64,000 bases of DNA from Lachnospiraceae bacterium (GTDB lineage Bacteria; Bacillota; Clostridia; Lachnospirales; Lachnospiraceae): the NCBI GenBank assembly GCA_017473115.1, contig JAFUNC010000008.1:1-64000 (forward strand), given 5' to 3'. How positions within the stretch are numbered: the first letter of the stretch is position 1; each line of letters begins with the position of its first letter. A program made the position numbers and the translations under genes. The notes under the pieces were generated by a model. The model was not told the DNA's origin and did not search any database. It saw only the letters and a program-made list of their open reading frames with translations. This document shows, one piece after another, positions 7,433 to 10,693 of this stretch.

Positions 7433-7460
7433 AAAAGCCGGGATAACTCCCCGGCTTTTT
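7433..7460 (+). terminator. Terminator after cheV
   Basis: A 10-bp hairpin (AAAAGCCGGG / CCCGGCTTTT) runs into a T tract, 6 bp after the stop. It separates cheV from the gene at 7506. Confidence 0.85.
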
Positions 7461-7505: not shown

Positions 7506-10076
7506 ATGCAGTCTACAGAAGAATATTTGGATCAGTTACTGGCGTCGGTCAGTGACGAAGAACCCAAAAGAGAGACAGATACAAAAGCGCAGAAAGCGCA
7601 TAGAAAGTCCATAGAAGAGTTGGACGAATCGGAATTGACAGAGGAAGTGTTACAGAAACAACTTGCTCTGCTTTTAGGGTTGGAAACCGAAGAGGAAGAT
7701 GATTATTTTAATACGCCGGAAGAAGATTTTATGTCGCAGTATACGGAACAACTGTCTGCGCAATCTTTTGATACCGATATACAGGATATTGTGGAGGAAG
7801 CGTCTGTTGCGGCGCCGGAATTAAAGGCGGAAGAAAGTGTAGAGAATCATGTGGCGGATGTTGCAACCGTTTCTGTTGAACCGGTTTCCGAGCCTGCACC
7901 TGCCATTTCCAATACAGGTGTATTATCAGATGATGAAATTGCGGCACTTTTTGCATCGATGGAAGCAGAGAACAGCGAGCAGGAAGCGGAAGAAGTAAAA
8001 GAAGCAGTACAGGAAACGGTAAAAGAGGAGCCTGCACCTGCAGTTTCCAATACCGGCGTGTTATCGGATGATGAAATTGCGGCACTTTTTGCGTCTATGG
8101 AAGAGGATAACAAAGCAGAAGCGGAAGAGGTAAAAGAAGCAGTACAGGAAACGGTAAAAGAGGAGCCTGCACCTGCAGTTTCCAATACCGGCGTGTTATC
8201 GGATGATGAAATTGCAGCACTTTTTGCATCGGTGGAAGCAGAGAATAGTGAGCCGAAAACAGAAGAAGTGAAAGAGGCGATACAGGACGCAATAAAAGAA
8301 GAGATTGTAGCGGAGAAAGAGGCTGCTCCTGTGATGTCTGACAGTGGCATGATGTCTCAGGAAGAAATCGCTGCTTTGTTTGCGGCTATGGAGACGGAAG
8401 AACCTGCCAAGGATGAATCAGGCGGACTTACCAGAGAAGAACTGGAGGAATTGGGTCTGAGTGATATTGCGGATGTATTAGTGGACGGCGAAGCGGAAAT
8501 TTTGGCCGAGACGTCGGGAGAGGAAAACTCCGCAGTGTCGGATGCATTGAAAGAAACGGAAGATGAAGCACCGGTAAGTCAGGTGGTTGAGTTTTCGGAT
8601 TTTGATTTTGATGAAGAAGTCTTACTGGATTTAGAAAATGTAGAAGAAATGTTGGAAGCCACCGCGAAACTTGCGGAGGAAGAGTCGGTTTCATTTGATG
8701 CGGATATGCAGGCAGAAGAAGACATTATGTCTATGCTGTCACAATTCGAAGAGGAGAGCATCCAAGAGAATGCCGAAGCAATCGCTGAAAGTACCAAGGC
8801 GGCAGAAGAAGCGGTTTCGAAGGCGCTTGAGCCCGAAAATGACATTCCGGCAGAATTGGCGGAAGAAGCGGAGACGGGAAAGAAGAGACGTAAAAAAGAA
8901 AAGAAAGAGAAAGTCAAAAAGGAAAAAGTTAAGAAAGAGAAACCGATAAAAGAAAAGAAATCTAAAGTCTCTCTAAAAGACAGAATTACTGCTTTTATGT
9001 TCGAAGATGATAGTACTGAGGACGGCAAAGTGCCTTTGGGAGAAGGGGATTCGCTGGAATATATGGATATTCCGTCAGAGGAAACACCTGCGAAACCCAA
9101 GAAAGAAAAGGCCCCTAAAAAGAGCAAAAAAACAAAGGCAGAAAAGCAGGAGAAAAAAGCAAAGGACGAGAATGCCGAAATTGCGGCAGAGTTAGCGGCC
9201 GAAGACAAAAAGAAGGCCAAGAAGAAAGAAAAGCCCAAGAAAGAAAAGAAAGTCAAAAAAGTTGTTATTGCAGATGATAATAATACTGACGATATCAAAG
9301 AGAAGAAACGCGGCATCGGAACAAAAGGTATCGTGGCTACATTGTTGGTATGCGCATCTGTGCTTGGACTGATTTTGGTGGGAACATACTTTTTGCCGCA
9401 ACAATTGTCTCTTGCCGCTGCGAGAGTGGCATTTTATGCACAGGATTATGAAGAAACAGCGTTACGCTTAAAGGATAAGTCTCTGAATGAAAGTGACCGG
9501 ATTATGTATGAAAAAGCCAGTTTGTTATACGGATTGGAAGAAAGATTCCAACAGGCTGAGATTTATGCAAAACGCGGTATGATAAAAGAAAATCTGGACG
9601 CTTTGTTGCAAGGTGTGGTTGCATGTAACGAAGAATCTGTTTTGGCAGGTCAGTTGGGCATCGAAACGGAATGGAAGTTACAAAAGGACCGGTTTATTAA
9701 GGCTTTACAGGAACAGTACGGTTTGGATGCGGAAACAGTAGAAGCAGTTTGTGCATTGCGCAATCCGAATTATACGGTAGCAGTAGAGAATATTTTAGCC
9801 GGACGAATGTATAATGATATGTCTGCTTTCGGTGGGGAAGCAGTAGAAACGCCTGAGGATACAACAGAAAATGTTGAGGTGGAAAATGAAACCGAAGACG
9901 GGCTGAATCCGGAAGAAATGGAAGATTTGTTACCGGAGGAAGAGGCGATTATAGAGCAACTTCAGCAGGAGGGAGTACAGACTTCCGAATCGGTTCCGTC
10001 TGCTTCCGAAGAATATACGGATGATTTGTTATATTCCGGAAACGTCGAAGGCGGAGCGGTGAATTTTGTGGAATAG
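7506..10076 (+). CDS. Acidic membrane protein with four FliM/FliY-like CheY-binding motifs
   Basis: I do not recognise this 856-residue protein as a named family. Seen: an acidic, low-complexity N-terminal ~450 residues; four copies of an LSxxEIAALF motif starting near residues 140, 186, 231 and 283 (three are VLSDDEIAALFAS, the fourth MMSQEEIAALFAAM); Lys/Glu-rich runs near 458-490 and 520-600; one hydrophobic segment about 608-628 (IVATLLVCASVLGLILVGTYF); then ~230 residues with TPR-like helices and an acidic tail. Known: FliM and FliY of B. subtilis begin with LSQ(N/D)EIDALL, the peptide that binds CheY~P. Inferred: the cytoplasmic N-terminal half displays four CheY/CheV-receiver docking peptides anchored to the membrane. 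Topology N-in/C-out is inferred from the basic stretch before the segment. It has a GGAGG site and ends 11 bp before hisH, so read-through into hisHF is likely. Confidence 0.7.
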   Translation: MQSTEEYLDQLLASVSDEEPKRETDTKAQKAHRKSIEELDESELTEEVLQKQLALLLGLETEEEDDYFNTPEEDFMSQYTEQLSAQSFDTDIQDIVEEASVAAPELKAEESVENHVADVATVSVEPVSEPAPAISNTGVLSDDEIAALFASMEAENSEQEAEEVKEAVQETVKEEPAPAVSNTGVLSDDEIAALFASMEEDNKAEAEEVKEAVQETVKEEPAPAVSNTGVLSDDEIAALFASVEAENSEPKTEEVKEAIQDAIKEEIVAEKEAAPVMSDSGMMSQEEIAALFAAMETEEPAKDESGGLTREELEELGLSDIADVLVDGEAEILAETSGEENSAVSDALKETEDEAPVSQVVEFSDFDFDEEVLLDLENVEEMLEATAKLAEEESVSFDADMQAEEDIMSMLSQFEEESIQENAEAIAESTKAAEEAVSKALEPENDIPAELAEEAETGKKRRKKEKKEKVKKEKVKKEKPIKEKKSKVSLKDRITAFMFEDDSTEDGKVPLGEGDSLEYMDIPSEETPAKPKKEKAPKKSKKTKAEKQEKKAKDENAEIAAELAAEDKKKAKKKEKPKKEKKVKKVVIADDNNTDDIKEKKRGIGTKGIVATLLVCASVLGLILVGTYFLPQQLSLAAARVAFYAQDYEETALRLKDKSLNESDRIMYEKASLLYGLEERFQQAEIYAKRGMIKENLDALLQGVVACNEESVLAGQLGIETEWKLQKDRFIKALQEQYGLDAETVEAVCALRNPNYTVAVENILAGRMYNDMSAFGGEAVETPEDTTENVEVENETEDGLNPEEMEDLLPEEEAIIEQLQQEGVQTSESVPSASEEYTDDLLYSGNVEGGAVNFVE
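7986..8227 (+). repeat. Tandem 135-bp duplication with 107 near-identical bp
   Basis: Bases 7986-8092 and 8121-8227 differ at only about two positions and are offset by exactly 135 bp (45 codons), so the duplication keeps frame. It carries the second and third EIAALF motifs, indicating recent expansion of the motif array. Confidence 0.85.
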
Positions 10077-10087
10077 TAGGAGATGAA

Positions 10088-10693
10088 ATGATAGCAATTA
10101 TTGATTATGATGCAGGAAATATCAAGAGCGTGGAAAAAGCCTTACAGTCTTTGGGGGAAGAAGTGATTGTAACCAGAGATGCACAAGTGCTTTTGAATGC
10201 CGAAAAGGTTATTTTACCCGGCGTTGGTGCGTTTGGTGATGCTATGGCCAAAATCAGAAGTTATAACTTAGAGAATGTAATTCATCAGATTGTAGCGAAC
10301 GGAACTCCCTTTTTGGGAATTTGTCTCGGGTTGCAGTTGATGTTCGAAGAGAGTGACGAAACTCCGGGAGTAAAAGGATTGGGACTTTTGCCCGGTAAAA
10401 TTTTACGGATTCCGGATGGTGAAGATTTAAAGATTCCGCATATGGGTTGGAATTCACTGCATTTTGAGAAAGATACCAGGTTATTTAAGGGAATCGGAGA
10501 AGGTGCATACGTTTATTTTGTACATTCTTACTACTTAAAGGCAGAGGATGAAAGTATTGTAGCGGCGTCTGCGGAATACGGCACTCATATTCATGCGGCG
10601 GTTGAAAAAGACAATGTATTTGCCTGTCAGTTCCATCCGGAGAAATCTTCGGAGGTCGGTTTGTCGATTCTTAAGAATTTTATTGAATTATAA
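10088..10693 (+). CDS. hisH: Imidazole glycerol phosphate synthase, glutaminase subunit HisH
   Basis: HisH hydrolyses glutamine and channels ammonia to HisF for histidine and purine by-product (AICAR) synthesis. The 201-residue class I amidotransferase has the nucleophile C79 in GICLGLQLMFEES and the His/Glu pair in CQFHPEKSSEVG. The start MIAIIDYDAGNIKSVEKAL is typical. It begins 11 bp after the preceding gene and is followed 65 bp later by hisF. No other his genes occur in the window, so hisHF stands apart from a classical his operon. Confidence 0.96.
   Translation: MIAIIDYDAGNIKSVEKALQSLGEEVIVTRDAQVLLNAEKVILPGVGAFGDAMAKIRSYNLENVIHQIVANGTPFLGICLGLQLMFEESDETPGVKGLGLLPGKILRIPDGEDLKIPHMGWNSLHFEKDTRLFKGIGEGAYVYFVHSYYLKAEDESIVAASAEYGTHIHAAVEKDNVFACQFHPEKSSEVGLSILKNFIEL

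Follow-up and report, generated by a model that had tools for sequence, protein, structure and literature searches.

The window analysed here is a 64,000-nucleotide (nt) stretch of a Lachnospiraceae bacterium (assembly GCA_017473115.1, contig JAFUNC010000008.1, positions 1 to 64,000), and our subject is the protein encoded directly downstream of its cheV gene, which we call X (P0001). Chemotaxis output is usually described as the encounter of phosphorylated CheY (CheY~P) with FliM or FliY at the motor, and a sequence-only reading of the window had proposed that X, carrying four copies of a peptide like the one with which FliM and FliY dock CheY~P, is a membrane-tethered sink or relay for CheY~P or phosphorylated CheV. 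X, whose gene adjoins cheV, is a previously unnamed and uncharacterised membrane protein found in swimming bacteria of the gut, and we regard it as very probably real and associated with chemotaxis. It contains no Pfam domain at an expect value (E) of 0.01, its single NCBIfam match lies far below the cut-off, and no earlier description of the family was recognised among the literature matches listed.

Translation confirms the four motifs near residues 140, 186, 231 and 283, and they lie in an acidic N-terminal half (residues 1-440 contain 29% Asp plus Glu, with a net charge of -106) that is followed by one membrane segment, as the sequence-only reading had it. When residues 1-600 were shuffled 20,000 times, motifs of the LS(D/Q)(D/E)EIAALF type occurred at a mean of 0.00005 and a maximum of one. 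Motifs 1-3 are carried by 128-nt repeats starting at 7845, 7983 and 8118; the identity is 94% between copies 2 and 3 and 64% for copy 1, so that the suggested recent duplication of one unit is real. A Lys-rich segment leads into the membrane span, while the tail (residues 781-856) has neither Lys nor Arg, and from the positive-inside rule we infer that the motif-bearing half is cytoplasmic (N-in). Beyond the span, AlphaFold2 models positions 9390-9845 (152 residues) as eight helices with a mean predicted local distance difference test score of 94.7, and a structure comparison bearing on a possible tetratricopeptide repeat or alpha-solenoid fold returned common helical matches only, from which we assign no fold.

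Table 1. Features of the cheV-X-hisH locus in window positions, with the cheV remnants of non-motile relatives
Feature	Position	Strand	Basis
cheV, CheW and receiver domains, 298 residues	6530..7426	+	Pfam CheW 6.1e-28, Response_reg 4.5e-18
Terminator-like RNA hairpin with U tract, between cheV and X	7433..7459	+	fold -17.6 kcal/mol, z -5.08
X, single-pass membrane protein, 856 residues	7506..10076	+	open reading frame translation; no Pfam match; no NCBIfam match over cut-off
Conserved N-terminal peptide STEEYLDQLLASV, residues 3-15	7512..7550	+	same peptide type in 62/69 named X loci
Three direct DNA repeats, 128 nt each, spacing 138 and 135	7845..8245	+	repeat comparison
Motif 1, LSDDEIAALF, residues 140-149	7923..7952	+	translation and pattern match
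Motif 2, LSDDEIAALF, residues 186-195	8061..8090	+	translation and pattern match
Motif 3, LSDDEIAALF, residues 231-240	8196..8225	+	translation and pattern match
Motif 4, MSQEEIAALF, residues 283-292	8352..8381	+	pattern match; FliM/FliY-only profile E 0.0047
Lys-rich segment ahead of membrane span, residues 441-607, 32% Lys plus Arg	8826..9326	+	composition
Membrane segment, residues 608-630 (about)	9327..9395	+	hydropathy; single segment over threshold
All-helical domain, predicted outside the membrane	9393..9797	+	AlphaFold2
hisH	10088..10693	+	Pfam GATase; start 11 nt past X stop codon
CheW remnant loci L211, L212, L213, L215, L223, L225, L226			116-169 codons in frames read; L213 cut by contig end

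Distribution and loss of X with flagella

With P0001 as query, matches were obtained in 20 of 61 related genomes. Among 31 genomes of the window's genus, X and FliM occur together in 15 and are both absent from 14; of the other two, G019 (74% complete) has X without FliM, and G015, in which hisH is cut at a contig end, has FliM without X. Across the family, sampled at about one genome per genus, a profile built on the membrane span of X and the domain after it (A1) matched 103 of 250 genomes, once in 102 of them and with a second, weak match in G108. A search with PF02154, in which usual and divergent FliM were separated at a best E of 1e-44 chosen after the values had been seen, divided the same genomes into 106 with usual, strongly matching FliM, 20 with divergent, weaker FliM, two with fragments and 122 without FliM. 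X was found in 97 of the 106, in none of the 20, in one of the two, and in five of the 122, G176 and G182 being weak matches among these five. The hosts of X are mostly gut and rumen bacteria, to judge by record titles. The sequence-only reading would have been contradicted by homologs widespread in non-motile genomes lacking CheY, and the five FliM-less genomes fall well short of this, CheY not having been searched for family-wide.

In an order-level sample of 196 genomes, the profile matched 16 times inside the family and, marginally, three times elsewhere. FliM was present in 20 of 24 genomes sampled from other families, and X, searched for with the single protein, in none, which rules out a general flagellar protein; X is a lineage-specific addition. 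The relatives retrieved by CheV mostly carry Lachnospiraceae titles, and include L243, apparently the contig of G019.

Within this group X also goes with cheV. In the 106 usual-FliM genomes, cheV and X are both present in 94 and both absent in eight, with one genome having cheV only (G068) and three X only (G065, G154, G223). All four mismatches adjoin contig ends: cheV of G068 ends 153 nt from one, and the sequence upstream of X in G065, G154 and G223 amounts to 0, 0 and 774 nt, respectively. The eight double absences are singly weak because the genes are neighbours and a single assembly gap can remove both; three of these genomes (G091, G109 and G261) are 94-96% complete. Among 116 homologous loci, 108 have at least 1 kb of sequence upstream of X; in 101 of these cheV is found there within 4.5 kb, being adjacent (<400 nt) in 57, and hisH or hisF lies downstream in 111 of 112. 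The expected co-occurrence with motile genomes and cheV is thus borne out. Since X is nearly confined to relatives that are still flagellated, it is probably a part of the chemotaxis system that had not been described before.

Of the 14 genus genomes without X and FliM, 13 retain a hisF match. Seven of these keep a CheW-domain remnant of cheV before hisH (Table 1), with the receiver half gone and X missing; in the other six, cheV and X are both gone and a different gene stands ahead of hisH. On the HisH/HisF/Ung tree the losers form two separate groups, each on a starred branch, so that two changes are needed, a count that excludes G015 and G019. Flagella were thus lost on two separate occasions within the genus, and each time X went with either cheV or its receiver half; two such events are too few for a sign test or for significance alone. 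Loss pattern, synteny and co-occurrence with FliM and cheV together support a role in chemotaxis or motility.

X might instead be a passenger that an old gene order keeps near cheV, with a function unrelated to chemotaxis and a co-occurrence that reflects shared ancestry. X in this genome may share a transcript with hisHF and not with cheV, because the hairpin follows cheV and X ends 11 nt before hisH; hisF and then a uracil-DNA glycosylase gene come next, and the hairpin is absent from the output of a simple pattern scan. This arrangement would suit a passenger, as does the fact that the family-wide counts take no account of phylogeny. However, hisHF are kept while X disappears in non-motile relatives of two separate clades, and none of the 20 divergent-FliM genomes has X, which makes such a bystander very improbable.

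The motif, its FliM and FliY counterparts and a second host

The recognised docking consensus of FliM and FliY is LSQxEIDxLL (PMC5677366, in excerpt), with which the X motif shares the Leu-Ser, the acidic pair, the Glu-Ile, the hydrophobic pair and equal spacing. Unlike FliM and FliY, X is membrane-bound and carries the motif in repeats, in which the Gln, the Asp and the final Leu are usually missing; FliM middle and SpoA/CheC domains gave no Pfam match in X at E 0.01. Among 31 distinct X motifs, position 7 is Ala in 19 and Asp in seven, position 3 is Gln in two and position 10 is Phe in 16, which bears out the reservation of the sequence-only reading about Ala in place of Asp.

In 115 X N-termini, some of them cut at contig ends, we counted 64 strict internal motifs against 0.1 in shuffled sequences, with at least one in 22 proteins and at least two in 12; the 69 named X loci hold 46 against 0.14, with at least one in 29 and at least two in 10. 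Together with the shuffles of the window protein, these counts rule out a chance motif in acidic sequence. By one strict pattern the copy number runs from 0 to 12 per protein, the maximum being that of G154, and the earlier suggestion that valency is evolving is thereby substantiated. Seven genus relatives have a single DMDEIDAIL motif instead, with the I-D core kept, while the X frame of G436, of 2100 residues, repeats a different, MEDLLGSLN-like peptide. More widely shared is the N-terminal E-x-(Y/R)-L-(D/E/N)-x-(L/M)-L peptide, from which seven of the 69 named proteins depart, three having gaps or a disturbed start and four sharing another start.

Profile searches in both directions connect the motif with FliY and FliM, if patchily. 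A profile of 18 X motifs (A2) was run on 18 whole genomes; as it was built from X, matches to X itself are expected, and the informative results are FliY, the second host described below and absence elsewhere. In each of the 14 motile genomes whose fliY was read, A2 picks out the N-terminus of FliY (E 1e-4 to 6e-3; 0.0028 in the window genome), ranking it below X and, in G106, G133, G196 and G246, below other motif proteins. In three non-motile relatives it retrieves other proteins only. Conversely, a profile of 22 FliM and FliY peptides (A4), searched up to E 10 in the window genome, retrieves only FliY, FliM and motif 4 of X, and it also matches small motif proteins of G133 (0.001) and G246 (0.0045). 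The proposed FliM/FliY-type identity of the motif stands in part: retrieval of motif 4 by A4 and of FliY by A2 is suggestive of a relation in the window genome, but A4 finds X in just two of the 15 X-bearing genomes searched (the window genome G000 at 0.0047 and G246 at 0.023), and the relation is not a general one.

Some other proteins bear related peptides. Small proteins ending in a FliM-like LSQAEIDAL occur at L198 and L199 (74 and 64 residues in the frames read) and, by profile match only, at L331; a small protein with a C-terminal motif is strong in just three of 250 genomes. At L336, a FliY-like protein of a divergent-FliM genome has MSQEEIERML and MSQEAIEQML in its linker, and L340 and L345, which were counted only, have a similar look.

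Applied to the 250 family genomes at E 1e-5, A2 matches 42, namely 41 of the 106 with usual FliM, one of the 20 with divergent FliM (G248, in a protein resembling FliY) and none of the other 124; the strong motif is confined to flagellated genomes. It lies on X in 13 genomes and elsewhere in 28, of which 27 (all except G286) match a second family, Y, a two-span membrane protein family unrelated to X with the motif at its C-terminus. We inspected 29 non-X loci, these 28 and G137, and found candidates in 27; exactly two N-terminal membrane segments are present in 22 of the 27 (the exceptions being L348, L350, L370, L371 and L378), and the last motif ends 3-7 residues ahead of the stop in 26 and 61 residues ahead in one. 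CheZ carries its CheY-binding peptide at the C-terminus, and by description this terminal docking peptide is like the motif of those 26. G130 and G295 have no candidate by pattern, yet the Y profile matches there. That profile, built from motif carriers, matches 38 of 250 genomes, 37 of them with usual FliM and one, G297, marginal (E 6e-5) and without it; 11 of the 38 lack the strong motif. None of the 13 genomes with a strong X array has Y (Fisher p 0.0037, phylogeny ignored). One peptide on unrelated membrane hosts, found only with flagella, is in our view the best sign that its partner would belong to the chemotaxis system. Upstream of Y in G196 lies a 774-residue protein (L196:4024-6345, minus strand) with a weak cNMP-binding match.

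The motif relation to FliY and FliM and the confinement of the strong motif to flagellated genomes would also suit the simplest form of the original proposal, in which X is a multivalent sink at the membrane, reducing free CheY~P or retaining it close to the motor. We consider this improbable, given that neither the core Ala nor the frequent Phe at position 10 occurs in the FliM and FliY N-termini read from 20 genomes, and that 93 of the 115 X proteins have no strict internal motif. The hairpin that separates cheV from X in the window is a further argument against a plain CheY sink.

Candidate partners and a putative membrane hub

All 80 named CheV loci retain the phospho-Asp motif. At the aromatic switch position 79 of them carry Gln, whereas Phe stands there in each of the 18 CheY proteins read; the equivalence of the positions follows our own alignment on the KP motif. 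Because of this difference, a changed partner for the X motif is plausible. In the available excerpts of published work, a role as phosphate sink has been suggested for CheV (PMC4742279), and a Vibrio CheV with Ala at the switch position is connected with MotV, a regulator of motility, and perhaps also with HubP (PMC8789113).

Carried further, this would make the array specific for the CheV receiver, and not CheY, the receiver having co-diverged with the I-A/F motif, and X would gather CheV, and through it CheA and receptors, without competing for CheY~P. The switch residues, the departure of the X motifs from FliM and FliY at positions 3, 7 and 10, and the association of X with cheV within the usual-FliM genomes are consistent with it. 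Such strict specificity nevertheless seems rather unlikely: the I-D core is kept in seven of the 31 motifs, Y is present in three genomes (G128, G199 and G217) that gave no match for X or cheV, and 14 divergent-FliM genomes have cheV and no X.

HubP of Vibrio cholerae (PMC8789113, in excerpt), compared by description, shares with X a single span and a large, acidic, repeat-rich cytosolic part, and both are linked to chemotaxis by way of a CheV whose switch residue is not aromatic. X might accordingly be an organiser of receptor arrays or flagella, its acidic half binding several partners and its LSxDEIAALF repeats binding something other than a receiver. The acidic repeats, single span and far-side folded domain resemble HubP, on which, or on MotV, CheV4 placement partly depends (PMC8789113, in excerpt), and the core role of X may not need the array, since most X proteins lack it. 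However, of the features that mark HubP/FimV proteins, X has the single span and the acidic repeat-rich region, while LysM gave no Pfam match at E 0.01; X also differs from HubP in its FliM-type motifs and in a helical domain on the opposite side, and the FliY and FliM profile matches would be left unexplained. We judge this alternative unlikely, if worth keeping in view. ChePep of Campylobacterota is by description another lineage-restricted, extra chemotaxis protein, which unlike X is reported to be important for polar localisation of CheZ (PMC11237671, in excerpt).

We tentatively propose that X is a chemotaxis-dedicated, membrane-anchored hub of Lachnospiraceae whose docking peptides hold receivers, an explanation that we find the best of those considered and whose chances we place a little short of even; that X docks receivers of some kind seems about evenly balanced. 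In this model, the long acidic N-terminal half of X would lie in the cytoplasm and display short amphipathic docking peptides, the N-terminal EEYLDxLL and, in this lineage, the LSxDEIAALF array, built like the FliM/FliY peptide. Several receivers, those of CheV, CheY~P or both, could be held by X at the membrane, and the signal would thereby be buffered or localised near the receptor array or the motor, while the probable task of the helical domain beyond the membrane is anchoring or sensing. Receiver binding and the direction of any effect on the motor are, like the topology, inferred. A broader version is possible but doubtful: membrane-tethered, diverged FliM-type arrays on X or Y may form a second layer of chemotaxis that captures receivers, probably the non-canonical one of CheV, away from the switch, with repeat number tuning valency.

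Several observations weigh against the hub. To the limited reach of A4 and the scarcity of the strict motif is added the behaviour of the profiles elsewhere, A2 matching an unrelated protein of G005, one of the non-motile relatives, (E 0.0027) as well as it matches FliY in the window genome, and A4 matching unrelated stretches at E 0.03-0.07, among them an XRE-like protein with LSQQEIDALL. The arrays mostly carry I-A in place of the I-D core, and a change of ID to WA in Caulobacter FliM abolished CleA binding (PMC5677366, in excerpt). The N-terminal peptide resembles FliM peptides by eye only and is not retrieved by the FliM/FliY profile. The disregard of phylogeny in the family-wide counts, the absence of X from the flagellated genomes sampled in other families and from divergent-FliM genomes, 14 of 20 of which have cheV, and the hairpin between cheV and X count in the same direction, as does a search for a SigD-type promoter upstream of cheV, which gave no signal above shuffles in 47 loci.

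If the hub is real, a widespread protein displaying several docking peptides would add a capture site outside the motor and would give the receiver of CheV a concrete role. Homologs with 0 to 12 internal motifs form a natural valency series in which the effect of multivalency on switching could be tested.

Neighbouring sequences at the locus

Many genera share a conserved open reading frame of about 250 residues, placed between cheV and X, that belongs to no recognised family (for example L062:2031-2849). A by-eye impression that it is SIR2-like received no library support in the one example scanned, and neither this frame nor Y has a Pfam match over cut-off, with NCBIfam matches far below cut-off at most. 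Many contigs (L243-L322) end some 80-760 bp upstream of cheV, and this clustering suggests a repeat there, such as an rRNA operon. At the start of the window, an open reading frame at 35-970 has Gly-Asp-rich repeats and an acidic, repeat-rich tail.

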